The notes beneath the pieces were generated by a model. The model ran no database searches and was not told the DNA's origin. It worked only from the letters and a program-made list of their open reading frames with translations. A stretch of 45,002 nt of DNA. Source: a virus. This document shows, one piece after another, positions 2,034-40,586 of the stretch (its first letter is position 1; each line of letters starts with the position of its first letter). Made by a program: the position numbers and the translations under genes. The DNA is taken from positions 163,907 to 208,908 of IMG/VR virus record IMGVR_UViG_3300043786_000977; one strand, written 5' to 3'.

Positions 2034-2455
2034 AAGAGTATGATCGGGCTAGTTTTGATGCGGCCTTCAAGGACAAACCGTTGACCATGAACAACTTGTT
2101 CGTATTTATGCTGCGCAATACGAGCGATGAAAACGGTCAGCCAGCACCGGGTCTCATCCTGGCCTCGTATCTCAGCATGCTTCACACGTTGACCGTGAAG
2201 CTGATCGATGCGTGGCCTGAGGCACTGAAGACGACGAAACCGGAGTTCACGGGGTATGTGGTTTCCCTGGCGTACTACCTGGGTATGTTGTCTGCTAATA
2301 CCAAAGACTTGGACAAAGAGTCATGGGCAGCGTCGGTGACACACTGGGCTGATAAGATGCTCGGGGACGAACCCGGACGTCATGCCGTGGTCATGGAGTT
2401 GGTTAACGCCCGCGTGGAGGTCGATAAGCTGTACGTCGAGCCGGCACAGACGTAG
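2030..2455 (+). CDS. Hypothetical helical protein, 141 aa
   Basis: ATG overlaps the preceding stop (ATGA) and GAGGTGGAGG just upstream is a good ribosome site. The protein looks alpha-helical and neutral, with no Cys pairs, signal peptide or membrane span. It ends the first transcription unit: a hairpin with a T run follows within 40 bases. I do not recognise the family. Confidence 0.8.
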   Translation: MKEYDRASFDAAFKDKPLTMNNLFVFMLRNTSDENGQPAPGLILASYLSMLHTLTVKLIDAWPEALKTTKPEFTGYVVSLAYYLGMLSANTKDLDKESWAASVTHWADKMLGDEPGRHAVVMELVNARVEVDKLYVEPAQT

Positions 2456-2470
2456 TTCATATCAGGTGTT

Positions 2471-2493
2471 GTACGACAGGCTGTCGTACTTTT
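2471..2493 (+). terminator. Intrinsic terminator
   Basis: GTACGACA (2471-2478) and TGTCGTAC (2482-2489) form a perfect 8-bp stem with a 3-base loop, followed by TTTT. It lies between the stop at 2455 and the start at 2549. Confidence 0.7.
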
Positions 2494-2548
2494 GAAAGTC
2501 GCTGGACGTGTGTTTGGCGCAAATGGTTAAACAAAACGGAGGTATTCA

Positions 2549-3532
2549 GTGAGCGTAGCAAAGACGACGAAGACGACGAAGACGATGGATCTCCTGGTCG
2601 CGTTCGAGGGCGCCTGTGTAATGCGGGGGCTCGTCATCACGCGTGCCGTCGAGGAGTATGTAGCGACGACCGAAGCCGCGATGGTTGGTCTGCATGGCTG
2701 GGGTAAGTTGGATCGTGGATTGAAGCCGCAGATCCAGGCATTGATTCCCATCCTGGAAGCCGGTCGTGCTGCACATGTGCAGTATCATGCCCGGGTCTTG
2801 GGACTATGCGCGATTCATCACGTGGAAACACTCAAGGCTGCGAGCGAGACATTCGAGCAGGATCCTGCCGTTGTGCAGCACAACGCACACTACGGGAAGC
2901 AGCTCATACTGGCGACGCCCGCCGAATTGGAGGGTCTGCCGGACTACACGGGCAGCGAGACGTTGCGTGCGCAGGTGTGTGATGCCTTCATCGCCCAGTT
3001 GAACGAAGCGTTAAGCCTGACGACCTCCACTACGCTCGGGAAGATCGCCAAGATGGTCAAGGGCCTGCACAAGGCCATTTCGTGGCTTCCGGAAGAGCTG
3101 ACGCCCAAGGCCCACGAGATCCTGGGTACCTATGCGGCGGCATGGTGCAATGAAATGCTTGTGACACCCATGCTGCGTGACGATCAGAAGGTCACCGTGG
3201 AGAAGACCAAGATACTCTGGGGTGCATGTCAGGAGAACATGGCCCAGGGTATGGCGCCGGACGAGGCGTTGTCACGCTCGCTGATGAAACTCAGTTTCTC
3301 AGCGATGACGGAAGCCCTCTCCGACATGTCGGGGGGAAGCCTCAGGTCCATGCTGGGCCTGTTGGATGCCTGTACGAAGCCGGGGGATGATGCGGAAGGA
3401 GGCCTCAAGAGGATGATATCCATGATGGATGACATCATGAAAGAGATGCCGCCGCAGGATCAGCCGACGCGTGACCCGGCGGTAGTGGATGCACCGCCGC
3501 TGCGTTTCGTGGAGAGTGCAAACCCGGTCTGA
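2549..3532 (+). CDS. Hypothetical 327-aa helical protein
   Basis: GTG start at 2549 with CGGAGGT about 7 bases upstream. After a Lys/Thr-rich start (KTTKTTKT, encoded by a 9-base repeat) the protein is almost entirely predicted alpha-helix, with no Cys motif, signal peptide or membrane segment. It ends in a Pro/Asp-rich tail (about residues 300-320). Codons strongly prefer G/C in third position compared with neighbours, which often marks a highly expressed gene. It stands alone between two strong terminators (2471 and 3550), so it is probably a monocistronic unit. I do not recognise the family. Confidence 0.85.
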   Translation: MSVAKTTKTTKTMDLLVAFEGACVMRGLVITRAVEEYVATTEAAMVGLHGWGKLDRGLKPQIQALIPILEAGRAAHVQYHARVLGLCAIHHVETLKAASETFEQDPAVVQHNAHYGKQLILATPAELEGLPDYTGSETLRAQVCDAFIAQLNEALSLTTSTTLGKIAKMVKGLHKAISWLPEELTPKAHEILGTYAAAWCNEMLVTPMLRDDQKVTVEKTKILWGACQENMAQGMAPDEALSRSLMKLSFSAMTEALSDMSGGSLRSMLGLLDACTKPGDDAEGGLKRMISMMDDIMKEMPPQDQPTRDPAVVDAPPLRFVESANPV

Positions 3533-3549
3533 GCAATCACTGGGGGACG

Positions 3550-3587
3550 GGGCATGGGAGGTAACACTCCCATGCCCTGCTTCTTAT
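3550..3587 (+). terminator. Intrinsic terminator with 11-bp perfect stem
   Basis: GGGCATGGGAG (3550-3560) pairs perfectly with CTCCCATGCCC (3567-3577) around a 6-base loop, followed by a T-rich tract (TGCTTCTTATT). It sits 18 bases after the stop of the preceding gene. Confidence 0.85.
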
Positions 3588-3588
3588 T

Positions 3589-3852
3589 ATGACATTAACA
3601 AAAATACCCCGGCCTATAAGAGATCGTTTAGTCACGCTGCTCGGTGGCGTCAAATGCACGCACCCCGTGTCCGGTGTTGACTTTTCACAATCTGCATCAT
3701 GTACCGATCGTGTAACGCGTGCCACCAGGACGTGGCATACGCTCAGTGGCAAGGAACGCCTCAGTTATTTACATACTGTACACATGGCGTACCTTGAAGA
3801 GTTGAGGGACCTCGCTGCGGTGATGTGTCATACAGCAAGTAGTGAAGAGTAG
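3589..3852 (+). CDS. Hypothetical 87-aa protein
   Basis: The frame follows directly after the terminator hairpin and has no visible Shine-Dalgarno at ATG 3589, so the start is uncertain. The product is mixed: a basic N-terminus (RPIRDRLV), two Cys in the middle, then a helical C-terminus. Family unknown. The next gene has a good ribosome site at 3861-3866. Confidence 0.5.
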   Translation: MTLTKIPRPIRDRLVTLLGGVKCTHPVSGVDFSQSASCTDRVTRATRTWHTLSGKERLSYLHTVHMAYLEELRDLAAVMCHTASSEE

Positions 3853-3872
3853 CTTAAACCAAGGAGATGTGT

Positions 3873-4043
3873 ATGCCGCAAGAACTCAAGTGCGCTACAT
3901 GCAGGGATATGGAAGCGCGTATAGGATGCGGTGTTAAGACAGCGGTGAAGGCGGATGGGCATCGTTGTCTGCTACGCAGACGTGGCGTTGGGATTTATGT
4001 ACAGAAAGGTACGGTACCGTCATGGTGTCCAAAACTGCGGTAA
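3873..4043 (+). CDS. Small Cys-containing protein, 56 aa
   Basis: AAGGAG at 3861-3866 lies 6 bases before ATG 3873. The 56-residue product has CATC near its start (C7, C10), then C19, C32 and C52, and a basic RRR patch, which suggests a small zinc-binding protein. It overlaps the next gene by 22 bases. No family recognised. Confidence 0.6.
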   Translation: MPQELKCATCRDMEARIGCGVKTAVKADGHRCLLRRRGVGIYVQKGTVPSWCPKLR

Positions 4044-4273
4044 GCTATCCGCCCATCAAACCAGGTACGGCAGTCGTTACACTCAGTCCTGACCTCAGTG
4101 AACAGAATGAATGGACTGAGGCAGGTTGGCTCGCTCGTCGTTGGGGTGTTGAAGGTACTGTGTTGGCCCACAGTGACTCGCACGGTTTGTGTTATCACGT
4201 GCAACACGCTGATGGTTCGGATGCGTGGTATAACCCTTCTGAAATTCAGGTGGTGCAGCGCGATGAAGCCTAA
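4022..4273 (+). CDS. Hypothetical 83-aa protein, beta-rich
   Basis: ATG 4022 is preferred over an upstream in-frame alternative at 3965 because it leaves a smaller overlap with the preceding gene and has AAAGGT upstream. Short strands with a WLARRWGVEGTV segment and a HADGSDAWYNPSEIQ ending look like a small SH3/KOW-like barrel as seen in many phage accessory proteins. That fold is an inference. It overlaps the next gene by 11 bases. Confidence 0.6.
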   Translation: MVSKTAVSYPPIKPGTAVVTLSPDLSEQNEWTEAGWLARRWGVEGTVLAHSDSHGLCYHVQHADGSDAWYNPSEIQVVQRDEA

Positions 4274-5212: not shown

Positions 5213-5526
5213 GACTGGATGATATCGCATTGGAGTTTCCGCGGCTGCGTAACGCAGATGTACGTGGTATGGCAGTCAGGTATCCTAAAGACGGTTTACC
5301 CTATGACGCAACCGGACCGCAACCCGGTGATAAGGTGTATGTGCAGTCGACCTGGATGGCCGGCATATGGTTTGCCAAGGAACGTAATCAGACGCACGGG
5401 CGTATATGGCCTTATACGGGTGCGGTTCCCGCACACGCGTTGACGCTACATCCAGACTTCTTTAAGGAGTATAACGTTAAGAAGCCAGCACCCGTGCGCC
5501 GTAAAAGGGAAAGGTGTCAGGTATGA
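5209..5526 (+). CDS. Hypothetical 105-aa protein
   Basis: ATGA overlap upstream and AAGGAGGAG ribosome site. The product carries GDKVYVQSTWMAGIW, a short beta-rich segment, and a basic C-terminus (RRKRER). It lacks Cys pairs and membrane spans. Function unknown; its stop overlaps the next start by ATGA. Confidence 0.7.
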   Translation: MRLDDIALEFPRLRNADVRGMAVRYPKDGLPYDATGPQPGDKVYVQSTWMAGIWFAKERNQTHGRIWPYTGAVPAHALTLHPDFFKEYNVKKPAPVRRKRERCQV

Positions 5527-5864
5527 AGTATATCCAGATAGGCATGATATGCTGCCTCTTTGGCATACTTTTCACTTCACTTAGGCAGCAGGACAAGCCG
5601 AGCATATCACAACCGACAGTGTTGCAGGCGAGTCCGATGCTGTCAGCTGATGCTGCGCCTGTAACGGCGGCACCAAACCAGAAGGAACCCGTGTATGCTG
5701 TTGTCGTGACGGCCTGGAACGAAAACAACAGTTATAGCTGGGAGGTGTACTTCTACCACGCCTCCACACCGGAGGCAGCTCAGAAAGCAGCCATCGGCGA
5801 ATACATGATTACGCATCGAAACTGTCGGAGTCCGATGGCCACGGTACGTGTGTGTCCGGAGTGA
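5523..5864 (+). CDS. Secreted or membrane-anchored hypothetical protein, 113 aa
   Basis: ATG 5523 overlaps the preceding stop. The N-terminus has a hydrophobic segment at about residues 4-19 (IQIGMICCLFGILFTSL), a signal anchor, then a Pro/Ala/Ser-rich linker (to about 58) and a small globular part. The adjacent CC could be lipidated, but the surrounding residues are not a clean lipobox. It precedes the metacaspase gene by 53 bases; both products would lie outside or on the membrane. Confidence 0.65.
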   Translation: MKYIQIGMICCLFGILFTSLRQQDKPSISQPTVLQASPMLSADAAPVTAAPNQKEPVYAVVVTAWNENNSYSWEVYFYHASTPEAAQKAAIGEYMITHRNCRSPMATVRVCPE

Positions 5865-5917
5865 GTTAACTCGTAAGGGCCAATACCAATGAATGTTCGT
5901 AATGAGAGGAACGTTGA

Positions 5918-6787
5918 ATGACAAGGTTTACACAATTGATGGTGATGATGGGGTTCTGCGCGGTCATGGTCGGCTGTCGTACTACTGATAGTTGGCAGCC
6001 ACCCGTAGGTACAGGATCGAGTGCAGTGGCCGTGTGTCTCGGCATTAACGACTACCCGGGTCAGGCGAATGACCTGGGTGGTTGTGTTAATGATGCCCAG
6101 GATTGGGCTTCATGCCTGCAGACGTATGGTTTCGCTACTAAGATCTACACAGATGCTGAGGTAACCAGTTCACTATTCGCTACCCTCCTAACGTATATAG
6201 CGGATAGCGCAGTAAGTGGTGATCGTATCGTGATCACATACTCTGGGCACGGGACACAGGTAAAGGACACTGACGGCGACGAAACTGATCAGCGGGATGA
6301 GGCCCTTTATCTATATGATAACGTTGTCACCGATGACATGATCAAAGAGCATCTGAGTCGTATACCTAACGGCGTATCCGTTACGTTGATATTCGACTCT
6401 TGTTTCAGTGGTAACGCGGTGAGAGCGCTCAATGCGGAGTCTAAGATCAGGTACGTGTGGAAACCATCACCGGCAGGTATAATTGATTATAACGGTAATC
6501 GGTCAGGTGACGTATTCATCATGGATAACACCACGACGGGTGAAATGCGTGAAGTCTACCTGGCTGCGTGCAGCGACACGGAGTATGCGTACGATGCCGT
6601 GTTTAACAGTCGGCCGAATGGCGCGTTCACATACTACGCCCTGAAGTCATTGCTACAGACGCCTGATCCACAGACCTACGTGACGTGGAAGATTTCGCTG
6701 GATAAATACCAGAACGTTATGAAGCAGACGCCTCAATTCGAGGGTCTGCCAACGAACTTGAGTAAACGTGTGTTCCAAACAAAATGA
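5918..6787 (+). CDS. Metacaspase (peptidase C14-like) with lipoprotein-type signal
   Basis: The 289-aa product has a hydrophobic N-terminus ending MVGC20, a plausible though imperfect lipobox, so it may be an acylated envelope protein after Cys20 processing. The rest is a caspase-fold domain: an opening strand VAVCLGIN(DY) at about 37-46, the catalytic His in YSGH111GT, and the catalytic Cys in DSC162FSG. An acidic stretch between them (DTDGDETDQRDEAL, about 117-130) matches the calcium-binding and substrate-pocket segment of metacaspases. Both catalytic residues are present, so it should be active; metacaspases usually cleave after Arg or Lys. A ribosome site GAGAGG precedes ATG 5918. No p10 extension or partner domain follows. 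Its role in a phage is unknown: possible roles are killing of competitors, counter-defence or host-envelope processing. Confidence 0.9.
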   Translation: MTRFTQLMVMMGFCAVMVGCRTTDSWQPPVGTGSSAVAVCLGINDYPGQANDLGGCVNDAQDWASCLQTYGFATKIYTDAEVTSSLFATLLTYIADSAVSGDRIVITYSGHGTQVKDTDGDETDQRDEALYLYDNVVTDDMIKEHLSRIPNGVSVTLIFDSCFSGNAVRALNAESKIRYVWKPSPAGIIDYNGNRSGDVFIMDNTTTGEMREVYLAACSDTEYAYDAVFNSRPNGAFTYYALKSLLQTPDPQTYVTWKISLDKYQNVMKQTPQFEGLPTNLSKRVFQTK

Positions 6788-6797
6788 GGAGAAGACA

Positions 6798-7760
6798 ATG
6801 CCTAGAAATGCGATGATTCTGAAGGAGTGTGACATCTGTGGCGCGGATGTCGTGTTGACTCAGCCGGGCGGTGCTGCGCGGTACATGTGCACAAAGTGTA
6901 AGGCCGTGTACTATCACAGCGGCACCCGGGATATGTCCTATCCAAGCCTGTACGATGCCCCACCGTCCAACCAACAGCAGTTCCGCGTCATGCACAGTCA
7001 GCTGTTGGCAGCTATGGCTGCGGCGGGAGGGATGAGGAAGGTCGATACACTGTCGCACTTGCGCCACGATGCTGATTATTACATGCGTGCGTTGACGGGT
7101 AGCGTTTTTACCTACAACGATGTGGTACAGTGGCGTCGGTCAGATCACGCCAACTGGCAGTACGGCATCGTCAAGGGTTACGATCCGGCACAGAGCCTAT
7201 TCTGTGTGGAAACGGGAAACAACACCGTGTTGTGGCTCGATCATACCCAGGTCCGCGTGAGCACGCAGTCTATGCCTCAGCCTGTGGTGGCCCCGCCCTC
7301 CAAGGCAAAGGAAGCCCGCACGTCGAAGAGTCAGGCCCGTGCTGTGAAGCTGCGTGTGCGTGCGCCCGCGTATCCGGGGTCTTGTTATATGGCAGCGCCG
7401 ATACCGGTATTGCCATCTACCCTCACGGTCTGGACGTACCAGCTTGCCGGGGGTAAGTCAACACCTATCAAGACAGAGATCCCGTTCAATACGACAAGAT
7501 GGACTCCAGTATCTGGTGTTTCGTGTGTGGTGTACTTCAACCCGCACCAGAACACGTACCATGTCTTCGCAGAGAATTCGGGGGCAATGCTGGGTACGGG
7601 CAAGAACAGACGCGACCTGATGCGTCGGGTAAGACGTGAACTATGGGAGTCGTCACCGGAAGACGTACTGCATGAACTGGAAAAGGCCACTGTCGTGTGT
7701 AACACGCAGGCAGTACCCGTGCCGTTGGATGTGTTCTTCAATCGTGTGTTTGCCGATTGA
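6798..7760 (+). CDS. Hypothetical 320-aa protein with N-terminal zinc ribbon
   Basis: ATG 6798 is chosen because GAGGAGA lies 5 to 11 bases upstream; an upstream in-frame ATG at 6768 lies inside the metacaspase gene. Residues 11-40 form a zinc ribbon (CDICGAD ... CTKCKAVY). Residues about 100-165 look like a small SH3/KOW-like barrel (VVQWRRSD..WQYGIVKGYD..LFCV). Then comes a Lys/Arg/Ala-rich linker and a C-terminal domain. A terminator follows immediately, so it closes the unit containing the metacaspase. Function unknown. Confidence 0.8.
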   Translation: MPRNAMILKECDICGADVVLTQPGGAARYMCTKCKAVYYHSGTRDMSYPSLYDAPPSNQQQFRVMHSQLLAAMAAAGGMRKVDTLSHLRHDADYYMRALTGSVFTYNDVVQWRRSDHANWQYGIVKGYDPAQSLFCVETGNNTVLWLDHTQVRVSTQSMPQPVVAPPSKAKEARTSKSQARAVKLRVRAPAYPGSCYMAAPIPVLPSTLTVWTYQLAGGKSTPIKTEIPFNTTRWTPVSGVSCVVYFNPHQNTYHVFAENSGAMLGTGKNRRDLMRRVRRELWESSPEDVLHELEKATVVCNTQAVPVPLDVFFNRVFAD

Positions 7761-7775
7761 CATCTGGTTATAAGC

Positions 7776-7827
7776 CGGGTGGCCTATGCTCGGTGCATAG
7801 GTCACCCGTAGCTTTTCCCTTTTATCT
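7776..7827 (+). terminator. Intrinsic terminator
   Basis: A 14-bp stem with one G-T wobble: CGGGTGGCCTATGC (7776-7789), loop TCGGT, GCATAGGTCACCCG (7795-7808), followed by T-rich sequence (GCTTTTCCCTTTT). It is 15 bases after the preceding stop. Confidence 0.85.
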
Positions 7828-8892: not shown

Positions 8893-9702
8893 ATGAGCAA
8901 GAAAACAGATCAGGTTAGTCGTATCCAGTTGTGTGATGTAAAACCCCCGCAGGACTGGATGCAGGTAACCTGTGGGGTGTCACAGTTATATGATATGTAC
9001 TGGAATGCACTCTTTCAGGCATTTGCACCTGTGAGCGTATACAGTATAGGGTTGCCAGTTACCAGTTTCGATTACCTCGTAAGGAACCTGAAGCCTGGCA
9101 AGGATGCACAGGCGACTGCTACCTGGTGGTCGTGCAAACTCAGTTTTAGCGGTAAGCAAGTTACGCCCCTATCGTTTGCTGAAACGGCGCACGGCTGTAT
9201 CAATCAGCGACGTAAGTACACCGATGCCCCGTACATCTGTCACCCGATAGCCGTGGCTGACATTGTTGCAAGTGTCCCGCACACAGATAACATGCTCGCA
9301 GCAGCCTTGTTACATGATACGGTTGAGGATACGCCGGTTACACTACATGAGATCCGTGAATATTTTGGACCCGACGTCGCGACACTGGTTGAGATGCTGA
9401 CTGATGTAAGTAAACCGTCAGATGGCAACAGAGCTGCACGCAAGGCAATTGACCGTGCGCATACTGCAAAGGCAAGTCCTGAAGCGATGACAATCAAGTT
9501 GGCAGACTTGCTGGATAATACACGTAGTATCGTGGAACACGATCTGAATTTCGCCCGCGTGTATCTTCGAGAGAAGTTAGATCTCTTGGATGTGCTAGGG
9601 GCGGGAGATAAGACGTTATATCAACTGTGCTGGGAGACGGCAACAGCTGGTATGAGAAAGGTGGCGGACGCCGATGAACAACGGCAAGCCGAAGCGCAGT
9701 GA
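8893..9702 (+). CDS. HD-domain hydrolase of the MESH1 / SpoT-hydrolase type, probable (p)ppGpp hydrolase
   Basis: Of 269 residues, 1-90 are an unassigned N-terminal region and about 95-230 are an HD domain. Key residues match the small alarmone hydrolase (MESH1) and RelA/SpoT hydrolase pattern: H100 with QRRK, PYICH117P, LLH141D142TVE145D146T, a LTDVSK segment at 169-174, and KLAD205. These provide the metal ligands and the catalytic Glu-Asp pair, so the site appears complete. No synthetase, TGS or ACT domain is present. The expected reaction is removal of the 3' pyrophosphate from (p)ppGpp, which would counter the host stringent response; hydrolysis of another nucleotide is an alternative. 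The ribosome site is GAGG before ATG 8893. Confidence 0.85.
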
Positions 9703-16211: not shown

Positions 16212-16513
16212 GTAAAGAGTATCGGACGCTGACCGCTGGAGAAACACTGCAAGCGGGAGATCAGTTCATGTCTATCGGTGTTTGGGTGGGTACCTATGAT
16301 ATAGGTAAAAAAGTACCAAGGGTAGAGCCGGTATACCGCCGACTCTTATCCGCACTTCCGCCAGTCGTCGCAGCACTACGTGATATGATCCTACTCGCTC
16401 AGAGTGAATACCCCCGGACTGAGTGGGAGGAACGCGGTATTACTGAGGCTGTCCGGATTTACCGGGAGACCTATAGGCATACCGGAACTGAACCCGATCC
16501 CCGTGTGGAATAG
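16208..16513 (+). CDS. Phage module protein of the YRxLxxGExLxxGD...YRR type, 101 aa
   Basis: AAAGGAGA lies 8 bases before ATG 16208; an in-frame ATG at 16175 is less well placed. Residues 5-45 (YRTLTAGETLQAGDQ, W, then YRR) match the module in the gene at 11705-12058 and in many phages. A helical C-terminal half follows. Function unknown. Confidence 0.75.
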   Translation: MSKEYRTLTAGETLQAGDQFMSIGVWVGTYDIGKKVPRVEPVYRRLLSALPPVVAALRDMILLAQSEYPRTEWEERGITEAVRIYRETYRHTGTEPDPRVE

Positions 16514-16526
16514 AAAGGACGATAAC

Positions 16527-17081
16527 ATGAAAGCAGTAGGACTGGTAGTGGTTAATGGTGGCGTAGCATACGACTATGCACCGACGCACGTTGACATTCG
16601 GGTTGTTGACGTTGATGGCATTAAGGCTGGCGACGCGAAAGTTCAGTTGCCAATCGGCGTAGGCTTCGAGCACCTGGTAGATCAGGCAGACGTCCGTGAA
16701 TATGTTGACTTCATCTGTCCGCAATGTGGTGCCCTCGCTGGTACTGAGCCTTGTAAGGATGAACAGGACAAACCAAGGCAGAGACTAGTAGTAGTGAAGC
16801 GCCTTACGTACCTCGAATGGGTAGACACGTATAAGCCTGTCACGAACCGGGTGGTGAAGGATGCACCCTACGACGGACACATGTACACTCCAACTGGACT
16901 AGAACTAGCGGTCGTACAGGACCAGTATGACAGGCGCCCGAGATGTGTGTGGACTTTGATAGAGACAGCAGGTGACCACCGTACGATAGTCAACGGTTAT
17001 CGGCGGGTGAATAGTGTCGGGTACTTCGTCACCGAGGAACCCTATTGCACCCGTGTAAAGGTCAGTTTCAACTATGGCTAA
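16527..17081 (+). CDS. Two-module hypothetical protein, 184 aa
   Basis: AAAGGA lies before ATG 16527. Residues 1-40 (LVVVNGGVAYDYAP ... VVDVDGIKAGD) match a stand-alone phage module. A CPQC ... C patch follows at about 66-77. Residues about 88-178 are homologous to the whole product of 18103-18408 (shared KRxxYxxW, YKP, YDG, VWTLI, GYF motifs). The gene therefore looks like a fusion of two orphan modules, one duplicated 1.5 kb downstream. Function unknown. Confidence 0.75.
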   Translation: MKAVGLVVVNGGVAYDYAPTHVDIRVVDVDGIKAGDAKVQLPIGVGFEHLVDQADVREYVDFICPQCGALAGTEPCKDEQDKPRQRLVVVKRLTYLEWVDTYKPVTNRVVKDAPYDGHMYTPTGLELAVVQDQYDRRPRCVWTLIETAGDHRTIVNGYRRVNSVGYFVTEEPYCTRVKVSFNYG

Positions 17082-17274
17082 ATCAAAATGGATTGATCAA
17101 CGGGACATTCCCGCCGCTGGGCGTTACGGAAAGATCAAGACACCGGGATGTGAATGCACCACCCTATTCACGTGTGGTGCGTGCCTCGCTCGTGCACATG
17201 CCCGAAACATGGCGGAACGTGAGGCGTCTCCGTATTGTCGGGACGCCCCTACCCGCCGGAAGGAGACATCATGA
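17074..17274 (+). CDS. Small Cys-rich protein, 66 aa
   Basis: Overlaps the preceding gene by 8 bases. It has CEC ... TCGAC and a later Cys, consistent with a zinc knuckle, in a basic background. The stop overlaps the next ATG (ATGA). Function unknown. Confidence 0.65.
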   Translation: MAKSKWIDQRDIPAAGRYGKIKTPGCECTTLFTCGACLARAHARNMAEREASPYCRDAPTRRKETS

Positions 17275-17648
17275 GCATAGATGCGATGCCCGGCTGTTAC
17301 GGACACGAACAGCGCAAGGCGCGTAAGACCCACAAATGCTGCGAATGCGACGGCATTATTCAGGTTGGTGAACCCTACCACTACCACCATGGTATCTGGG
17401 ACGGTGAAGCGTCGGACTTTAAGGTATGCCTCGACTGTGAGGTACTAAGGCACGAATACGACGCCGACTCACATCCAGACGAATGCACAGCGTTTGGCGA
17501 GTTAAGTGAGACGGTTGCAGGATGCGGCGCGCATGAGAAAGAACTCTTCGTGCGGTTCGTGGAGATTAAACGCAAGCGTGGAGCGTCCGTATCTGACTGG
17601 ATGGCAGAGGATGCTGTTGCATATGCAACGAAAGGCCCCACACCATGA
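17271..17648 (+). CDS. Phage zinc-module protein (ARKxHKCCEC ... CxxC type), 125 aa
   Basis: ATG 17271 follows GAAGGAGA by 6 bases. Residues about 17-60 (ARKTHKCCECDGIIQVGEPYHY, WDG, CLDCEVLR) form a familiar phage module: an RKxHxCxxC start, a Gly-Glu-x-Tyr strand and a distal CxxC, hence one zinc site. A helical region with FGELSE follows. The role is unknown. Confidence 0.8.
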   Translation: MSIDAMPGCYGHEQRKARKTHKCCECDGIIQVGEPYHYHHGIWDGEASDFKVCLDCEVLRHEYDADSHPDECTAFGELSETVAGCGAHEKELFVRFVEIKRKRGASVSDWMAEDAVAYATKGPTP

Positions 17649-17663
17649 CAAGGAGACAGTAAA

Positions 17664-17876
17664 ATGAGCATCAACAAGAAGCAGACCCGCATTACCATAC
17701 CGGCGACGAAGAAGGTGGTACTTGAATTCATCGAGTATCATACCGAATTAAAAGCAAGATGTTTCAAATGTTATTACCAGACACGATCCTGCGGGGACGT
17801 GCCATGTGGTGTCGGCGATCGCATCGACGGGAACACCGGGTATTATCGGGTAGTCAAACAAAAGGCAAGACAGTGA
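17664..17876 (+). CDS. Small hypothetical protein, 70 aa
   Basis: GGAGA lies 12 bases before ATG 17664. The product is basic with four Cys in the middle (CFKCYY ... CGDVPC), possibly a zinc site. It ends in a TGA that overlaps the next GTG start. Confidence 0.65.
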   Translation: MSINKKQTRITIPATKKVVLEFIEYHTELKARCFKCYYQTRSCGDVPCGVGDRIDGNTGYYRVVKQKARQ

Positions 17877-18106
17877 GTAAACCAAATGACGGTGGACCGG
17901 CGTTTCCAGCGCTGTACCCCGTCGAGGATGAGACTGGACGGTTGGGTATGTCCCTGCGCGACTGGTTCGCCGGGCAAGCATTGGCGGGGATACTGGCGAA
18001 TCCAGCGCTTGTAGATGTCAAGGCGGCAAAGTGGGTTGCGTCATATGCCTATGAGATTGCCGACACGATGTTGGCCGAACGTGACAAACCACGGGTGACA
18101 CCGTGA
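17873..18106 (+). CDS. Phage protein of the DGGPAFP / LRDWFAGQAL family, 77 aa
   Basis: GTG 17873 overlaps the preceding stop (GTGA) and aligns exactly with the expected start of the module: DGGPAFP near the N-terminus, MSLRDWFAGQALAGIL, and a helix ending AYEIADTMLAER. I recognise this as a very common small phage or prophage protein of unknown function. The stop overlaps the next GTG. Confidence 0.85.
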   Translation: MSKPNDGGPAFPALYPVEDETGRLGMSLRDWFAGQALAGILANPALVDVKAAKWVASYAYEIADTMLAERDKPRVTP

Positions 18107-18408
18107 GTAAATCAATGCCTGCCTTATGTTCGCAGGTTAAGCGTATGCGCTATGCCACATGGTTGGTACGGTATAAGCCCATTGTAAACTCGTTGGTGGA
18201 AGACGCGTCCTATGATGGTTATATGTTCGAGACCTATGGCGCCGAATTGCAAGTTGTCCAGGCTGCCCGTAAGAAGCACGTATGGACTCTAATCGACACC
18301 GGCCGTAAGCGCCCAACTATAACCAGCGGTTTTCACTTCGTTAACCGCCTGGGTTATTTCCTCACAGAGAAACCCTGCAACGACGAATTCCTAGAAGTCA
18401 GTGCATAA
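18103..18408 (+). CDS. Hypothetical 101-aa protein, paralogue of the C-terminal half of 16527-17081
   Basis: GTG 18103 overlaps the previous stop. The whole protein aligns with residues about 88-178 of the product of 16527-17081: KRMRYATW, RYKPIVN, ASYDGYMF, ELQVVQ, VWTLIDT, NRLGYFLTEKP. Conservation of aromatic and Gly positions suggests one folded domain. Function unknown. Confidence 0.75.
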   Translation: MSKSMPALCSQVKRMRYATWLVRYKPIVNSLVEDASYDGYMFETYGAELQVVQAARKKHVWTLIDTGRKRPTITSGFHFVNRLGYFLTEKPCNDEFLEVSA

Positions 18409-18421
18409 AAGGAGACAACAG

Positions 18422-18565
18422 ATGGACAAGTTAGCGTGTTTAGGTTTGGGCTGGTTCCTTGGGTGTCTTGTGATGACGATCCACTACCACGCAAGCGGAT
18501 TAATTCGTTCGCGCAGTGAATGGTATCGTTATCGCAAGCTGAAAGGGTACACGGTGCCCGAATAA
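18422..18565 (+). CDS. Small membrane protein, 47 aa
   Basis: AAAGGAGA lies about 9 bases before ATG 18422. One hydrophobic segment (about residues 5-20) is followed by a basic aromatic tail (WYRYRKLKGY), typical of a phage inner-membrane microprotein. Function unknown. Confidence 0.6.
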   Translation: MDKLACLGLGWFLGCLVMTIHYHASGLIRSRSEWYRYRKLKGYTVPE

Positions 18566-18581
18566 CTCACGCAGGCGCCAA

Positions 18582-18827
18582 ATGAAGAAAAAGCAAATCA
18601 TCCAAGCCCTTGCGTCTTTTGACGATGAAGACGACGTTGCAATAGGTGACGTCGTCTATCTAGGGACCGTTTGCCGCATCTGCGGAAAGAGGCAATACGG
18701 TATGTCATACATATGCGTATTAGCACCTGGACATAAGGGGCGCTGCTACTGCTCCTGTAAGAACGTATTCTTTGACCCTGATATACCACTGAAGGAGATT
18801 CCACATGAGCGAGACACTGAACATTGA
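18582..18827 (+). CDS. Cys4 hypothetical protein, 81 aa
   Basis: ATG 18582 lies 16 bases after the preceding stop. An acidic N-terminal part precedes CRICGKRQ (about 31-38), C45, and CYCSC (about 55-59), compatible with a zinc ribbon. It overlaps the next gene by 23 bases. Confidence 0.65.
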   Translation: MKKKQIIQALASFDDEDDVAIGDVVYLGTVCRICGKRQYGMSYICVLAPGHKGRCYCSCKNVFFDPDIPLKEIPHERDTEH

Positions 18828-19632
18828 ATGGTTTATATCCGCGCTTCAACACGCTGGATGGCGGGCGCCGCTGGATGCACAACACGACCAAGCGGCAGCC
18901 CTATGGGCCCGGATAACGGAAACCCACAACCGCGAACGCGCTAATCTGATCAAGGAACGGGACGGGTACCGTTACGCTCATGTGTGTGCGGAAGCAGATT
19001 GTGAAACGGTTAAGGAACGGTGGAAGAAGACCGAAGCCGAACGTGACGAGGCACTTGCAGCTAAGGAGCGGTATCGTTTGGAGAACAAGGAACTGCTTAA
19101 AAGTTTATCCGGGTCAGGGTTTACCCGAGAGATGGACTTTTTGAGAAGTCAGCTTACTGCGATGACTGCAGACCGCAACAGGTTTAGGTCCCAGGCAGGA
19201 GAGTTGCACCGCCGACTAAACGAGATGATCGCGGCTAAGGAATTGGCCGAGCGCCGCGTTGAAGATGTAATGTGCATTCAAATGGCGAATTACGGCAATG
19301 CGTCAGCCACACACATGGCCTTATTGGATTGGGCAAAGCTGATAAACGCCGAAGCGACGAACAAACCGCAGGAAACCCCTGCATTGACCATCAAGATCGT
19401 CTGCACGTTCACGGAATCGCCTTCGTTTAACGTTCGACTTCTGCATAATGGGTTAACCTTCTTTTATAACAGCGAGCGTCTACAGGGGAATGAACGCATT
19501 CAGAAGGTCGGAAAGATCCTGGGCATCACGACACTCTCTGTGGGTGAGCACGAGATGCAGATCACACAGGAGCAGTACAACGCCATATGTGACGTTGAGG
19601 TTGGAAGAGAGCAAGGTAAGGAGACAGTATGA
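18805..19632 (+). CDS. Coiled-coil hypothetical protein, 275 aa
   Basis: GAAGGAGAT lies upstream of ATG 18805. Residues about 35-160 are a long charged helix with heptad-like hydrophobic spacing (RERANLIKERDGY ... VKERWKKTEAERDEALAAKERYRLE ...), probably a coiled coil. Residues about 190-265 form an alpha/beta C-terminal domain ending in a short VGEHEMQITQEQY stretch. Function unknown. The stop overlaps the next start (ATGA). Confidence 0.75.
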   Translation: MSETLNIEWFISALQHAGWRAPLDAQHDQAAALWARITETHNRERANLIKERDGYRYAHVCAEADCETVKERWKKTEAERDEALAAKERYRLENKELLKSLSGSGFTREMDFLRSQLTAMTADRNRFRSQAGELHRRLNEMIAAKELAERRVEDVMCIQMANYGNASATHMALLDWAKLINAEATNKPQETPALTIKIVCTFTESPSFNVRLLHNGLTFFYNSERLQGNERIQKVGKILGITTLSVGEHEMQITQEQYNAICDVEVGREQGKETV

Positions 19633-19781
19633 ACACACTCGAAAAGATTAAAGAACAGGGACTCACAGCGGACAAGTTGTTTGAACAGATGGGTAGGCGT
19701 GCGATCAGAAAGGATTGTGGCGGCATCCGTCTGATGTATCGACATACCCGTTTAAACAGGCAGCAGGACAGTTTCTGCTGA
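19629..19781 (+). CDS. Small basic protein, 50 aa
   Basis: AAGGAGA precedes ATG 19629, which overlaps the previous stop. The product is a basic helical peptide (LEKIKEQGLTADKLFEQMG) with a basic C-terminus. Function unknown. Confidence 0.6.
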   Translation: MNTLEKIKEQGLTADKLFEQMGRRAIRKDCGGIRLMYRHTRLNRQQDSFC

Positions 19782-29584: not shown

Positions 29585-29887
29585 ATGAAGGCATTCGTGT
29601 TATTGTTACTTGTGATGGCGGCAGGTTGTGCGACGCAGGGTCGTTTAACAGGCGCCGATCTCGATCTGCGTGACCCGCAACAGATTGAGGCTGGACGTAT
29701 GGACGCATTAACGCCATACTTGACGCAGGTGGGTATACCGAATACGGACGAGTTGGTAAAGGATCCTAAACCACGGGCTACACTCATCTGGTGGGAAAAG
29801 ATTCTGGAACAACTGCCGTTAATGAAGTGCAGGTTCCGTTTGATAGTTATCGAATGGAAAGACGATGTGCCCGTGAAAGCACAATAG
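29585..29887 (+). CDS. Small lipoprotein, 100 aa
   Basis: AAAGGGTT lies upstream of ATG 29585. The N-terminus is a typical lipoprotein signal: MKAFVLLLLVMAAGC15 with Ala-Ala-Gly before Cys. The mature part is about 85 residues with a WWEKILEQL helix. A small envelope lipoprotein in a late region could act in lysis (spanin-like) or superinfection exclusion, but no Pro-rich spanin pattern is evident. Confidence 0.7.
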   Translation: MKAFVLLLLVMAAGCATQGRLTGADLDLRDPQQIEAGRMDALTPYLTQVGIPNTDELVKDPKPRATLIWWEKILEQLPLMKCRFRLIVIEWKDDVPVKAQ

Positions 29888-34312: not shown

Positions 34313-35194
34313 ATGAATCCCTTACTTCTACGTTATCTAAAGTTGCTCAGTGGTTCAGGTATACGTACCTCGAAGGCCACGGGTGCGCCTATTGGTAAAG
34401 AGGTAGCGAAGACAGTTGGTACACAGTTGGGTACGGCTGGTGCTATTGCAGGTCTAGGTTACGGTGGGAAGAAAGTGGTAGAACATTATCCCGAACTCAA
34501 GGATATGTTGGACAACGTATTTCACAAGAGTCGCATCGGCCGCGTGATGGACGGACTCGGTATAAAGACGAGTCAATATCAATATCAAGATCCGGACACA
34601 CAATTACGGACGTCGTTGTTGAGTTTGCTCGCCGGTGGTGTACCTGCTGGATTAGGTCAGTTTGCGCACGAGACGTTACCGGACTTGAAGCCACGTGAGC
34701 GTATTGCCAAGCGTATACTTGCGCTATCACAGAAGCACCACAAAGGTGTTATAGAGGGCAGTCAGTACGCCTTCGATTCAAATACACGTAAGATTCACTC
34801 ACCAGATGGTCTCAAAGGTAATGTCGGAGCTATTGCTCATGAGGCAGGACATGCGATGGATCCGGTACTCAAGCGTACTGGACGTCTTCACAATATATTG
34901 CGCGGTGCTGGAGGTTTCGCAGGTAGTTGGGGTGCGATGGCAGCTTCTGATCGTGATACAGCACGGAACTACGCACTTGGCGGCAGTGCGCTTGCCTTAC
35001 CCACTTTAGCGCACGAGACCTATGCAGGAATCAAAGGTATGCAGTTGTTACGTCAGACATCACGGAAGATACCAACCAAGGTTTTGCTACGTGCCATGAG
35101 CGGACTACCATCTTATGCAGGTGCAGCCCTAGCACCTTTGGCAGTTTACGGCACCCGGTCAGCATTGGGAGGCTTCGGAGATAAAAATGATTAG
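34313..35194 (+). CDS. Probable virion-associated zinc metallopeptidase (HEAGH), 293 aa
   Basis: Starts 2 bases after the preceding stop. The core motif is AIAH176EAGH180AMD, a perfect HExxH zincin signature in a helix. LAHE235TYAGIKGM 55 residues later offers a candidate third ligand (Glu), giving a gluzincin-like arrangement. Gly-rich hydrophobic stretches lie before the site (about 35-50, 100-115) and after it (about 195-212 and 265-285), so it may be membrane-embedded or internal. Role could be head maturation or action on the host envelope during ejection. It overlaps the RNA polymerase gene by 8 bases. Confidence 0.65.
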   Translation: MNPLLLRYLKLLSGSGIRTSKATGAPIGKEVAKTVGTQLGTAGAIAGLGYGGKKVVEHYPELKDMLDNVFHKSRIGRVMDGLGIKTSQYQYQDPDTQLRTSLLSLLAGGVPAGLGQFAHETLPDLKPRERIAKRILALSQKHHKGVIEGSQYAFDSNTRKIHSPDGLKGNVGAIAHEAGHAMDPVLKRTGRLHNILRGAGGFAGSWGAMAASDRDTARNYALGGSALALPTLAHETYAGIKGMQLLRQTSRKIPTKVLLRAMSGLPSYAGAALAPLAVYGTRSALGGFGDKND

Positions 35195-38100
35195 TACACC
35201 ACCGGCATCGCCATTACCATCACACTTGCGGGATTTCGACGATACCGACAAGGCACGGGAACTGATTTATTCCGGTGCCCTGGATGCGGTATCGAAACGT
35301 TTTCCTGTCGAAGATGACGAGTATCGCGTTGAGTTACACAAACCACGATATACCGGGGTTCAGACCTATTCGCTGGAGCAACAGAAGCAGGCGCTGATGA
35401 AGGAGCGTCGTCTGACTACACCGATCACGGGTACCTGGAAACTGGTGCACAAGCCCACGGGTGCTGTGCTGGATGAGCGTGAGGATGTCGTGATGAATGT
35501 GCCCTATTACACGCAGCGGGGTACTTTCATTCACGGCGGTAACGAGTACAGTGTTGTGAACCAGGCACGCTTGCGTCCTGGCGTGTACATTCGGCGCCAA
35601 CGTACGGGTGAGATAGAAGGCCACGTCAACGTCAAGTCGGGTTCGGGTAAACCATTCCGCGTGCAGCTGGAACCCAACACTGGTGTGTTCAAGTTACACG
35701 TGGGGCAGTCCAACGTACCGCTTTATCCGTTAATGCGTGCCGTAGGTGTCACGGATCAGCAACTGATCAAGGCGTGGGGTGCTGACCTTGTGGCAGCCAA
35801 TATCAAGAAGCAGGATCCGCGGTCAATCGCGAAGTTGTATGATCGCTTCGCCGGTTATAAAGCTGAACCTGGTATAGATGAAGCGGGTCAGACAAAGTAT
35901 CTTCGAGATTCATTACCGTTATTTGAGTTGGACGAGGATGTCAACGCACGTACGCTCGGTCTTACAGGAGCTAAGGGTGTAACGCCTGATGTACTCCTGC
36001 GTATGACTTCGAAGATGTTGGGTGTATCGCGTGGCGAAGAGGATCCGGATGATCGTGACTCTCCACAGTTCAGTCATATCTACGGCGTGGAAGATCTCAT
36101 ACGTGAACGTATTGATAAGGATGCGGGTAAGCTGACACAGAGTATGCTGCGCAAGGTACGGCGTTCGCGTAATCTCCAGGCTGTGCGCCGTGGTGCCTTG
36201 AACTCTTATCTCGATAGCCTGTTGTTAGGCTCAGGGCTGGCAATGCCTTTGGAGGAAACGAACCCGTTGCATACACTTGAGCAGCTGAATCGTATCACCA
36301 AACTCGGTGAAGGCGGTATTGGATCGGCTGAGGCCATTACAGATGAGGCCCGTGACGTTAACTCAGGGCAGTTCGGTTTTGTGGATCCGATCACTGGACC
36401 AGAGGGTTGCCAAGCTTCTTCAATGCAAGTACTTACGTATGATGGTTGGGTATCGTGGCCGAACGTAACTATGGATATGCGTTTGGCATGCAACATTGAC
36501 GGTCAATTGGAATACCATAAGCCTACTGAATTACATGCGTTTGATCACGATGGTTGGATCTATGAGGCCCGTACTAAGCACCTAGCGTTCAGTGTAACAG
36601 GTGATCATAAGATTTGGAATCGTGCGTACGATCCGGGATCCGCGTATCGCTGGGAGCGTGTAGGTGCGTCATTTGAGCGTGATCGGCATATCTGTATAGG
36701 CGGACATTCGCCCGTGTCTGGTTGCGATACTGACTTCGAACTTCCGATTGTCGAGGGTGGTCATGCGCTTAAACTTACGACGACAACCATCCCTATGTTA
36801 CTGTGGGCCGAATTCATGGGGTGGTTTCTAAGCGAGGGTAGCACCTGTGTTAGATCCGACGGACAGATTCAGGTCAGTATCGCGCAACACGATCCGGAGA
36901 ACCAGGAGCGGATACGTCGTGTTTTGACACAACTTCCATTTGAGTTTTCGGAGAATCGAGTTCATGGTGAGTTGCACGCTTTTATAATTGTGCGTAAACA
37001 GCTTGGAGTGTATCTGCAACAGTTCGGTCGTTCTGCAGACAAGTATATTCCACAGTATTTGCTTGATGCCAGTATTGAAGCCCGTAAGGTGTTGTTGTCG
37101 TCTTTGTGCGCGGGCGACGGGCGGCGTAAAGGTTCTACGTACACATATTGCACGACAAGTCATCGACTTGCACTTGATGTTGAGCGTCTTGCGTTTTCGT
37201 TGGGTTACTCCGTACGTGTACGTTTCGAGAAGGACGATCGACCCCAGGCATTACAGGGCGGCACGTGGTGCGTGCATTTGCATCTCACCAAGGAACGCTG
37301 TGTCCTAAAACGTCATATGTCTCGTCGTCCTTACACTGGAAAGGTTTACTGCGCCACGGTACCCGGTAGTCAACTGTATGTACGTTTGGGTGACTACGGT
37401 GGGCACTGGTCCGGGAACATGAACATCGGTATTGACGTGCGTGCAGCCTATCGTACGTTCAAGGGTAACGATAACAACATGTACGCCGAGTTCAACGACA
37501 TAGGTACGGGGAAGCCCGTTTATCTGCGCCCTGACGAAGCCGCGTCACGTGTCGTGGCATTTCCCGGGCAAGACCCCAAGGCGGCTACGATATACGCTAT
37601 GCGTCGTGGGAAGGTTGAACGTGTACCGCGGGCGGAAGTTGACCTCGCTGTACCTTCGTTCGCACACATGATGTCCAGTCATACCAATCTCAATCCGATG
37701 CCGACAGCTGTACAAGCCGGTCGTCAGTTCTACGGTGCCAAGTTCTGGAGCCAGTACATGCCACAAGTGGCAGGTGAGGTACCTCTTGTTGACTCGCTCA
37801 TGCCTGATGGCAAGACGACGTGGACTGAGCACTACGGGCGCAAGGTGGGTACGTTAAAGAGTGACGTGGGTGGTACGGTCGTTAAGGTGACTGATAAGGG
37901 TGTGACCGTCATGGATGCCGATGGTAAAAAGCATCTGAACGAGTTGGTGAAGGACTTCCCGTTTAATCGGTTGACAGGTATCAGTTACTTCCCGACTGTA
38001 AAAGTAGGTGACCAAGTCAATGTTGGTGATATGGTTGCCCACTCTAATTTCACGGACTCTAAAACAGGGGCGTTGAATCTTGGCCGCAATTTGCGTACAG

Positions 38101-40586
38101 CCATCATCCCGTACAGGGGACACTCGTATGAGGATGCTTACGTGATCTCCAAGACCGCGGCTGATAAGCTGGCTTCGGAGCGTTTACAGGGCTTCGATCT
38201 GGATGCACGCCACGGTGTCGAGATGGGACGTAACAAGTACATCTCTGCATTCCCGCGTGCGTATACGACGGAGCAGATAGATAATCTGGATGATGATGGC
38301 GTGGTTAAACCCGGTACTGTGTTGAAAAAGGGTGACCCGATCGCTTTAGCCGTAGGCCCGCGTCTACTTACAAGCGCCGACGCCCAGTTAGGTAAACTGC
38401 ATAAGGTATTACGAAGTGCCTATACCGATAAGTCATTGACATGGGATTACTCAGGCCCGGGCACAGTTACGGATGTCGCACTGACACGGAACGGTGTTCG
38501 TGTGAATATAAAGAGCACACCGCCTGTAAGCCAAGGTGATAAACTGTCGACACGCTTCGGACTGAAAGGTGTTGTTGGTACCATTTTGGATGACGATAAG
38601 ATGCCCAGGGATCCAGTAACCAATCAGCCCTATGAACTGTTACTGAATCCGATGGCCGTACTCTCACGCGTGGCGCCGAACCAGATCATGGAAATGGCGC
38701 TCGGTAAGATCGCAGCTAAGACAGGCAAGCAGGTTCGTATACCCCAGGAGCCACCACCAGAGGGTTGGATGAACTGGGTACAGGCGCAACTCGACGAAGC
38801 AGGTATAAAGGATTCTGCGGATATCTTTGATCCGGAGAGCGGTAAGACGATCCGTAACATCGGTGACGGTAGCGTATACGTGTCCGCCTTCCATCACTTG
38901 GCCGAGAAGAAGTTATCGAGCCGCGGTGACATCGGCAGTTATTCAGCTGACGAACAGCCAGCCCGCGGTGGTAGTACCGGGGCAAAGAAGTTTTCACAGA
39001 TGGACGTTAACGCGGCCCTGGCTCACGGGGCGACAGATGTCATCAAGGACGTGATCACCATTCGTGGTACCAAGAACGAGGAGTTCTGGAAGGCCCTTAA
39101 ACTTGGCCGGCCGCTACCTGAACCCAAGGTGCCGTTCATATACGACAAGTTCCTGAATACCTTACGTGCCGGTGGGATCAACGTTGTAGAGAAAGGCGAC
39201 ATGACACAGTTGTTGCCTATGATGGACGACGACGTTAAACAGTTGTCGAAGGGTGTTGTGACCAGTAGTGATATGGTTGATTCTGATTTTGAACCGATGG
39301 CTGGTGGTCTCTTCGATGTCGGACGTACAGGTGGTATGGCAGGTAACCGGTGGACACATATCGAGTTGCCTGAACCACTCCCTAACCCCGTAATGGAAGA
39401 ACCGATCCGTCGTTTGCTCGGGCTCAAGATACAGGATATGGAAGATATCGTGGCTGGGCGTAAGGAGTTGAATGGTCAAACGGGTGGCGGTGCGTTAAAG
39501 GCTGCACTTGAGAAGATAGACCTGGATGCCATGATCACAGAGCACAGGCAGAAGGTACGGGTACTGCGTGGTGCTAATCGCGATAACTCGGTAAAGGTGT
39601 TGGGCTATCTTGCCTCTGCCAAGGAGCAAGGTATTCATCCCGCGAAATGGATCATCAGCAAGGTACCTGTATTGCCACCTGTCTTCCGTCCTATTTCGCG
39701 TATGGGTGACGTAGCCTTGTCTGCAGACTTGAATGAGCTATACCGTGACGTGTTGGAGAGTTCTAAGACATTCAAGGAACTCAAACCAGATCTGCCAGAT
39801 TCCGAGTTGGCAGATGAACGCTTGAACATATACAACTCTGTGCGTGCGGCATACGGCTTCGGCGATTCGATTACACCTGAGGGTCGATCGAAGCATCTTA
39901 AGGGCGCCGTACGTCAAGTCATCGGTACGTCTCCGAAGTTCGGGTTGTTCCAGTCCAAGGTTATATCAAAGCCGGTTGATGTTGTGGGACGTGGTGTGGT
40001 TATACCCAACCCCAACCTGGATATGGATCAGCTCGGTATTCCTGCCGATTCGGCGTGGACATTGTACAAGGACTTCGTGATGCGCGCCCTCGTTCGCCAC
40101 GGGTACCCGGCGATACGTGCAGCCGAAATGCTTGAGAACCGAACACCGGAAGCCAAGGAGATGCTGGAGAAGGAAATGTCAACACGGCCGGTGATTATGG
40201 ATCGGGCACCGACGTGGCATAAATTCAACCTGTTGGCGTTCTACCCGCATATCGTTGAGGGTCATACGCTCCAGGTCAGCCCATTGGTGACCAAGGGTTT
40301 CAATATGGACTTCGACGGAGACCAGGCCAACTTCCATGTACCGGTCTCAGATAAAGCCGTCAGCCAAGCGACACGTAAGATGCTACCGTCAGCAAATCTA
40401 TTCAGCTTAACGGATCTACAGTCGGTCCGGCATGCACCGTCAATGGAGATGACATACGGACTGTACCAACTTACACGGGAACAAACGAAGAAACCGACAC
40501 GTGTATTTAAGACAGCAAAGGAAGCAAGGGCAGCATATAAAGCGGGAGAAATCGCCGCGAACGATCCAATTGAAATACTTGCCTGA
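35187..40586 (+). CDS. rpoB: RNA polymerase beta fused to N-terminal beta-prime, with intein
   Basis: This 1799-aa protein is two RNAP subunits in one chain. Beta homology: the RGTFIHGG ... LRPGVY segment (about 113-133), ETNPL ... ITKLGEGG of the rifampicin region (357-376), DPITGPEG (400-407), HSYEDAYVIS (979-988), GDK1119LSTRFGLK1127G with both active-site lysines, and GDIGSYSADEQPxGG near the C-terminus. Beta ends near residue 1333. Beta-prime follows without a stop: WTHIELPEP, LPVLPP-type VPVLPPVFRP, the lid/rudder region, and the catalytic loop NMD1708FD1710GD1712Q, whose three Asp hold the Mg. The Cys4 zinc site normally at the beta-prime N-terminus is missing. The chain stops about 90 residues after the catalytic loop; the rest is encoded at 41969-43816. 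Residues 408-744 are an intein. Position among virion genes suggests a packaged polymerase, which is inference. Confidence 0.92.
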   Translation: MISTPPASPLPSHLRDFDDTDKARELIYSGALDAVSKRFPVEDDEYRVELHKPRYTGVQTYSLEQQKQALMKERRLTTPITGTWKLVHKPTGAVLDEREDVVMNVPYYTQRGTFIHGGNEYSVVNQARLRPGVYIRRQRTGEIEGHVNVKSGSGKPFRVQLEPNTGVFKLHVGQSNVPLYPLMRAVGVTDQQLIKAWGADLVAANIKKQDPRSIAKLYDRFAGYKAEPGIDEAGQTKYLRDSLPLFELDEDVNARTLGLTGAKGVTPDVLLRMTSKMLGVSRGEEDPDDRDSPQFSHIYGVEDLIRERIDKDAGKLTQSMLRKVRRSRNLQAVRRGALNSYLDSLLLGSGLAMPLEETNPLHTLEQLNRITKLGEGGIGSAEAITDEARDVNSGQFGFVDPITGPEGCQASSMQVLTYDGWVSWPNVTMDMRLACNIDGQLEYHKPTELHAFDHDGWIYEARTKHLAFSVTGDHKIWNRAYDPGSAYRWERVGASFERDRHICIGGHSPVSGCDTDFELPIVEGGHALKLTTTTIPMLLWAEFMGWFLSEGSTCVRSDGQIQVSIAQHDPENQERIRRVLTQLPFEFSENRVHGELHAFIIVRKQLGVYLQQFGRSADKYIPQYLLDASIEARKVLLSSLCAGDGRRKGSTYTYCTTSHRLALDVERLAFSLGYSVRVRFEKDDRPQALQGGTWCVHLHLTKERCVLKRHMSRRPYTGKVYCATVPGSQLYVRLGDYGGHWSGNMNIGIDVRAAYRTFKGNDNNMYAEFNDIGTGKPVYLRPDEAASRVVAFPGQDPKAATIYAMRRGKVERVPRAEVDLAVPSFAHMMSSHTNLNPMPTAVQAGRQFYGAKFWSQYMPQVAGEVPLVDSLMPDGKTTWTEHYGRKVGTLKSDVGGTVVKVTDKGVTVMDADGKKHLNELVKDFPFNRLTGISYFPTVKVGDQVNVGDMVAHSNFTDSKTGALNLGRNLRTAIIPYRGHSYEDAYVISKTAADKLASERLQGFDLDARHGVEMGRNKYISAFPRAYTTEQIDNLDDDGVVKPGTVLKKGDPIALAVGPRLLTSADAQLGKLHKVLRSAYTDKSLTWDYSGPGTVTDVALTRNGVRVNIKSTPPVSQGDKLSTRFGLKGVVGTILDDDKMPRDPVTNQPYELLLNPMAVLSRVAPNQIMEMALGKIAAKTGKQVRIPQEPPPEGWMNWVQAQLDEAGIKDSADIFDPESGKTIRNIGDGSVYVSAFHHLAEKKLSSRGDIGSYSADEQPARGGSTGAKKFSQMDVNAALAHGATDVIKDVITIRGTKNEEFWKALKLGRPLPEPKVPFIYDKFLNTLRAGGINVVEKGDMTQLLPMMDDDVKQLSKGVVTSSDMVDSDFEPMAGGLFDVGRTGGMAGNRWTHIELPEPLPNPVMEEPIRRLLGLKIQDMEDIVAGRKELNGQTGGGALKAALEKIDLDAMITEHRQKVRVLRGANRDNSVKVLGYLASAKEQGIHPAKWIISKVPVLPPVFRPISRMGDVALSADLNELYRDVLESSKTFKELKPDLPDSELADERLNIYNSVRAAYGFGDSITPEGRSKHLKGAVRQVIGTSPKFGLFQSKVISKPVDVVGRGVVIPNPNLDMDQLGIPADSAWTLYKDFVMRALVRHGYPAIRAAEMLENRTPEAKEMLEKEMSTRPVIMDRAPTWHKFNLLAFYPHIVEGHTLQVSPLVTKGFNMDFDGDQANFHVPVSDKAVSQATRKMLPSANLFSLTDLQSVRHAPSMEMTYGLYQLTREQTKKPTRVFKTAKEARAAYKAGEIAANDPIEILA
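36408..37418 (+). mobile_element. Intein with LAGLIDADG homing endonuclease inside the beta subunit
   Basis: Residues 408-744 (337 aa) of the polymerase protein break PEG/NIG, one of the most conserved beta motifs. Visible intein blocks: Cys408 then VLTYDGWVSW (block A), VT471GDH474KIW (block B), FMGWFLSEG (543-551) and LLSSLCAGDG (636-645) as the two endonuclease motifs with acidic residues E550 and D644, VYCATVPGSQLYVR (block F), and a WSGN744 end (block G). The penultimate residue is Gly, not His. The next extein residue is Met, not Cys/Ser/Thr, so classical splicing is doubtful. Removing it would give a 1462-aa polymerase chain with an intact motif PEG-M-NIG. Confidence 0.9.

Follow-up and report, generated by a model that had tools for sequence, protein, structure and literature searches.

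Prokaryotic metacaspases are widespread and their roles are largely unknown. The locus studied here raises the question whether a phage encodes such an enzyme together with a signal for the bacterial envelope, and what the enzyme would do there. The window, i.e. the whole stretch of DNA that was analysed (45,002 nucleotides), is the final 45 kb of a 208,908-bp record (a 209-kb phage).

The metacaspase gene, its fold and active site

The features of the gene and its product were located as follows.

5918..6787, + strand: metacaspase gene, 289 amino acids (open reading frame list, translation, Pfam)
6026..6742, + strand: Peptidase_C14 domain, residues 37-275 (Pfam match, model, fold comparison)
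6248..6250, + strand: catalytic His111 (invariant across 39 sequences)
6401..6403, + strand: catalytic Cys162 (invariant across 39 sequences)
6296..6337, + strand: D127, D139 and D140 of an incomplete cation site (alignment with the ligand list of PMC9622860)
6425..6538, + strand: low-confidence linker, residues 170-207 (AlphaFold2 model)

The protein is a single-domain metacaspase with p20-like and p10-like parts. Residues 37-275 matched PF00656 (Peptidase_C14) with 75.6 bits at a cut-off of 21.4, and the metacaspase was the only match of this profile across the whole 208,908-bp record. No PHROGs family was found for the protein. The complete His/Cys dyad, which had been noticed earlier in the sequence alone, was confirmed in the alignment of 39 relatives, where His111 of YSGHG and Cys162 of DSCFSG are invariant. 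C56, D59, S109 and D160 are likewise invariant in this alignment and, as in TbMCA2, would form the pocket for a basic residue. The phage metacaspase presumably cleaves after Arg or Lys.

By sequence, the nearest solved structures were GSU0716 of Geobacter (3bij, E=4e-19) and plant and yeast metacaspases. The AlphaFold2 model, built with 39 relatives, had a pLDDT of 79 and a pTM of 0.78 and was confident in the p20-like and p10-like parts; Lys and Arg residues of the linker that joins the two parts (residues 170-207) could serve as self-cleavage sites. In the Foldseek comparison with the PDB, the model matched metacaspases at a probability of 1.00, GSU0716 and the plant and yeast enzymes being nearest in fold, and the best structural matches among viral proteins were giant-virus metacaspases. 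The lack of a caspase fold, named in the sequence-only reading as an outcome that would overturn it, was thus not what structure prediction and comparison with C14 proteins returned. The assignment to the C14 metacaspases with a caspase fold is firm.

The calcium ligands of the Candida metacaspase include Asp198, Asp214 and Asp245, and the metal ligands of TbMCA2 are Asp173, Asp189, Asp190 and Asp220 (PMC9622860). D127, D139 and D140 of the phage protein align with Asp198, Asp214 and Asp215 of CgMCA-I, respectively, and the position of Asp245 is taken by R169. As three of the four aspartates are kept with R169 in the fourth position, the site falls short of a complete eukaryotic one, and the previously proposed acidic calcium-binding-like segment holds for these three residues but not for the fourth. 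Arg in this position is usual in most prokaryotic relatives of the 39-relative alignment. A calcium-independent orthocaspase is known from a cyanobacterium (PMC7475262).

The N-terminal leader

Three features were identified at the start of the gene.

5904..5910, + strand: Shine-Dalgarno-like GAGAGGA, 7 bases 5' of the ATG (read from the sequence)
5918..5974, + strand: predicted signal peptide, residues 1-19, with the lipobox VMVG at its end (pattern, antisense control)
5975..5977, + strand: Cys20, predicted lipidation site (pattern match)

The N-terminus before the C14 core consists of MTRFTQLMVMMGFCAVMVG, CRTT after the predicted cleavage point, and a short spacer. The lipobox, V16-M17-V18-G19 ahead of C20, is preceded by R3 and a hydrophobic stretch and fits the PROSITE-type pattern, with an unusual Met in the -3 position where Leu is classic. 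The leader was called by pattern and ribosome-site criteria; in the 205 kb scanned, a lipobox combined with ATG and Shine-Dalgarno was found in 4 of 407 sense-strand ORFs vs 0 of 480 antisense ORFs. Two of the remaining sense-strand matches resemble good small lipoproteins and one does not. When the first 35 residues were shuffled, the pattern still arose in 3% of cases, and composition therefore carries much of the lipobox signal. The lipobox-like MVGC of the sequence-only reading was upheld by the pattern fit, the ribosome site and the antisense control. Judged from these sequence features, export of the protein is quite probable, and lipidation on Cys20 is probable as well.

Further lipoprotein-like genes of this phage, of no known family, occur at 29585-29887 of the window and at 19031-19261 of L109. 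Another one, also without a known family, lies outside the 205 kb lipobox scan at 1939-2460 of L111 (record position 161939).

Among 94 homologue ORFs, a lipobox was detected only in L013, a phage contig in which a portal gene follows, and a start codon was present at most 14 residues from the core in 89 of them. The leader is probably an envelope-targeting signal which nearly all homologues lack. A C-terminal transmembrane segment was present in L010, L027, L033, L070 and L077; membrane tethering recurs in this way, yet with an anchor of this kind the domain would stay cytoplasmic. A Pseudosulfitobacter plasmid C14 protein of 656 aa carries a Sec-like signal, and therefore the export of C14 proteins has a precedent.

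The leaderless state of nearly all relatives and the C-terminal anchors that keep the domain of some near relatives inside are the grounds for a cytoplasmic enzyme, made from an internal start or held by an N-terminus that is a mere membrane anchor, which would act on host or defence proteins within the cell. Possible internal GTG starts do occur near residue 37. However, there is no ATG there, a good ribosome site is situated 5' of the annotated ATG, and the hydrophobic stretch is followed by the lipobox cysteine, so that we regard a cytoplasmic site of action as distinctly unlikely.

The phage record and the surroundings of the gene

The genes next to the metacaspase, and the probable end of its operon, are listed below.

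5523..5864, + strand: small upstream protein with a hydrophobic N-terminus, possibly exported, of no known family
6798..7760, + strand: downstream gene, 320 amino acids, weak N-terminal zinc-ribbon, 10 bases past the metacaspase
7776..7808, + strand: terminator-like hairpin of 14 pairs, probable operon end (consensus scan only)

The record is a genuine phage, and the phage origin of the gene is well supported. The portal-like and multisubunit RNA polymerase proteins occur in the gene order of Salmonella phage Arash, to whose proteins they are about 27-31% identical, and a simple gene caller placed 234 of 237 genes on one strand. The codon usage of the metacaspase, 0.122 per codon, is average for the phage (0.103 +/- 0.052), and the GC content of the gene is 49.9% compared with 52.1%. 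Host DNA or misassembly, which had been put forward as a possible refutation of the phage metacaspase, is an unlikely source of the gene and was rejected on the strand, codon usage and operon evidence. The host is probably Gram-negative, since the distant relatives of the phage are Salmonella and Vibrio phages. Neither the downstream gene nor the RNA polymerase, used as query, retrieved a phage close enough for an analysis of synteny or selection. Rfam and tRNA scans gave no matches in the window.

The fused RNA polymerase ORF of the window (35187-40586, 1799 aa) exceeds the Arash protein in length. Weak LAGLIDADG and intein-like matches at residues ~406-681 suggest an intein within this ORF, and in Vibrio phage D181 the same match carries the annotation of a homing endonuclease.

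No lysis gene adjoining the metacaspase was identified in the window phage. An exported 144-aa protein is encoded 6.4 kb upstream (record 163025-163459; L111 3025-3459), and its K-x-E-N-G-x-x-GRE motif is conserved and common to two other phage contigs. The protein was considered as a wall hydrolase and dropped, as Pfam, PHROGs, the PDB and a predicted model all gave no recognisable family or fold; due to this, no lysis cassette is claimed for the window phage.

The link to regulated death and defence drawn in the sequence-only reading found no local support, with no recognised defence partner beside the gene; three neighbouring genes were compared and none gave a match. In PADLOC, the caspase profile alone matched (E=1e-10), and a known anti-phage system was rejected.

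Two other genes in the vicinity were recorded. A DUF7788/DUF2828 protein (L111 350-1843; record 160350-161843), encoded upstream at a distance of about 8 kb, contains DRSGSM, a motif that is typical for domains of the vWA type. About 2 kb downstream, an HD_4-domain hydrolase of the RelA/SpoT-like type is encoded at 8893-9702 of the window; in a 485-kb phage, a similar-looking HD protein (L003 5643-6395) and the metacaspase are about 4 kb apart.

Relatives and phylogeny

Metacaspase relatives were found on about 26 distinct contigs in the IMG/VR scans and in one 485-kb huge-phage record in GenBank. The scan of genome contigs resulted in 201 bacterial matches, the best of which were from Desulfobulbaceae, Competibacteraceae, Thauera, Zoogloea and others. 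With these contigs, phage metacaspases as such are not unique; the leader, however, is present in nearly none of the relatives. In the literature searched, no paper dealt with a phage-encoded metacaspase. What is new is the lipoprotein leader on an enzyme of known fold in tailed phages.

In the tree, the window protein belongs to a set of 15 (support 98/97) of which 11 are viral, together with L116, L117, L118, L008, L128, L004, L010 and Calditrichota/KSB1 enzymes. Its branch is long, and its exact position within the set is not fixed by the tree. At least three switches between bacterial and viral labels are forced by well-supported branches. These label changes, and the scatter of relatives over bacteria and phages, would fit a recently acquired host gene without a function for the phage. 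The phage-like codon usage, the shared strand, the 10-base gap to the next gene, the intact dyad and the long branch inside a mainly viral group all speak against such a pickup, which is accordingly the least probable of the explanations considered.

In one phage contig (L017 4801-6792), the metacaspase ORF is split just past the active-site SGHG by an apparent intein, which begins with CFAGDT and ends with VHN ahead of S.

Neighbourhoods of the phage relatives

A wall hydrolase was found within four genes of the metacaspase in five of the ~26 contigs. In L005, the metacaspase has a tail fibre gene on one side and, on the other, an endolysin with an ORF that overlaps it. In L116, it is located 22 bases 5' of an N-acetylmuramidase, with a tail sheath later on; in L117, a GH25 lysozyme and one gene precede it, and in L125, an SLT enzyme and a lipoprotein-like gene. 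The weak relative of L019 is followed by two small genes, which by eye resemble spanins, and by a holin and an endolysin. Four of the ~26 are at most one gene away from a wall hydrolase, compared to the one or two expected at a baseline of ~5%; the linkage is suggestive only, since this baseline is our own estimate and the neighbours for testing were chosen by eye. Two lipoprotein-like genes stand directly upstream of the metacaspase in L118. The genomic setting of the relatives is suggestive of late or lysis functions. Because most phage relatives are leaderless, their location in lysis modules is no proof that they act at the envelope.

The metacaspase is in or near the terminase/portal block in L006, L009, L010, L126 and L013, and elsewhere in L007, L011, L008, L015 and others. 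The former location would agree with a protease that is part of the virion or takes part in maturation and cuts structural proteins of the phage. In the window phage, however, the metacaspase is ~19 kb from the portal-like gene and the export signal would take the enzyme away from the site of head assembly, which makes this function improbable.

Some unusual genes were encountered on the same contigs. In the large phage contigs L008 (10857-11375) and L015 (10820-11272), a macro-domain-like gene is located directly 3' of the metacaspase, called by a weak Pfam match in L015 and by eye in L008. L008, a 476-kb phage contig, also encodes a 1119-aa protein with a Cas12f1-like TNB domain (16293-19649), and the C-terminal part of the L006 portal protein (2083-4161) matches an ADP-ribosyltransferase family (phrog_3895).

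Proposed role

Our tentative reading, preferred to each rival but at less than even odds, is that a captured bacterial metacaspase was re-targeted as a periplasmic lipoprotein and acts late as an Arg/Lys-specific envelope protease which assists lysis. A bacterial-type single-domain metacaspase would have been taken up by phages and, in this phage, gained a Sec signal peptide and a lipobox. The enzyme would be exported, lipidated at Cys20 and kept in the envelope, facing the periplasm, of a host that is probably Gram-negative; cations outside the cytoplasm may activate it there. Its substrates would be envelope proteins, cut after Arg or Lys, and it would most likely act at a late stage of infection to aid lysis. 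The C14 fold, the invariant dyad and pocket residues, the phage record, the lipobox, the near-absence of a leader in relatives, the relatives beside wall hydrolases and the lipoprotein-like genes upstream of the metacaspase in L118 and L125 count for this reading, and the many phage relatives in packaging or replication blocks and the window gene without an adjoining lysis gene count against it.

The chief rival is superinfection exclusion, because a receptor can be blocked by a periplasmic phage lipoprotein, as T5 Llp shows: a periplasmic lipoprotein protease made early would block rival phages by cutting their receptor in the outer membrane or an injection factor. Small phage lipoproteins achieve such a block without proteolysis, e.g. 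T5 Llp on FhuA (PMC9586334). The location of the metacaspase among small genes of unknown function, outside any recognised lysis cassette, also agrees with exclusion, which is nevertheless rather unlikely, as the relatives are mostly in late modules. It counts further against exclusion that no exclusion lipoprotein is known to be a protease. The lysis role is somewhat more likely. A wider generalisation, that phage metacaspases form a class of proteases which act on the envelope in lysis or exclusion, re-aimed here by lipoprotein export and activated by the cation-rich periplasm, is possible but doubtful.

If the phage metacaspase is sent to the envelope, it would add a proteolytic step to the toolkit with which phages open or seal the bacterial envelope, and it would be tractable by experiment, with lysis time or exclusion as a clear phenotype.

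Comparison with known systems

The phage protein resembles the prokaryotic single-domain metacaspases, or orthocaspases, such as GSU0716 (3bij) in its domain, dyad and p20-/p10-like parts, and shares with most prokaryotic metacaspases the Arg in the fourth cation position. In contrast to it, the cytosolic enzymes of Desulfobulbaceae, Thauera and Zoogloea are bacterial and have neither a signal peptide nor a lipobox. The Pseudosulfitobacter plasmid protein has a Sec-like signal peptide before its C14 domain, as predicted here, but it is a non-phage protein without a lipobox and with a long extra C-terminal part.

Giant-virus metacaspases are known, and a part in the death of the host cell has been proposed for them (PMC10327091). 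Those of Fadolivirus and Yasminevirus are also virus-encoded and have the caspase fold at ~20% sequence identity; their viruses, however, infect eukaryotes. Other IMG/VR phage C14 proteins (L005, L008, L010, L013, L116-L118 and others) belong to the same family and to tailed-phage contigs, but are leaderless or C-terminally anchored, with a lipobox only in L013. T5 Llp and the o-spanins are phage-encoded, lipidated and located in the envelope, as is predicted for the metacaspase in lipidation and location; these proteins are small and non-enzymatic, whereas the phage metacaspase has a protease domain.
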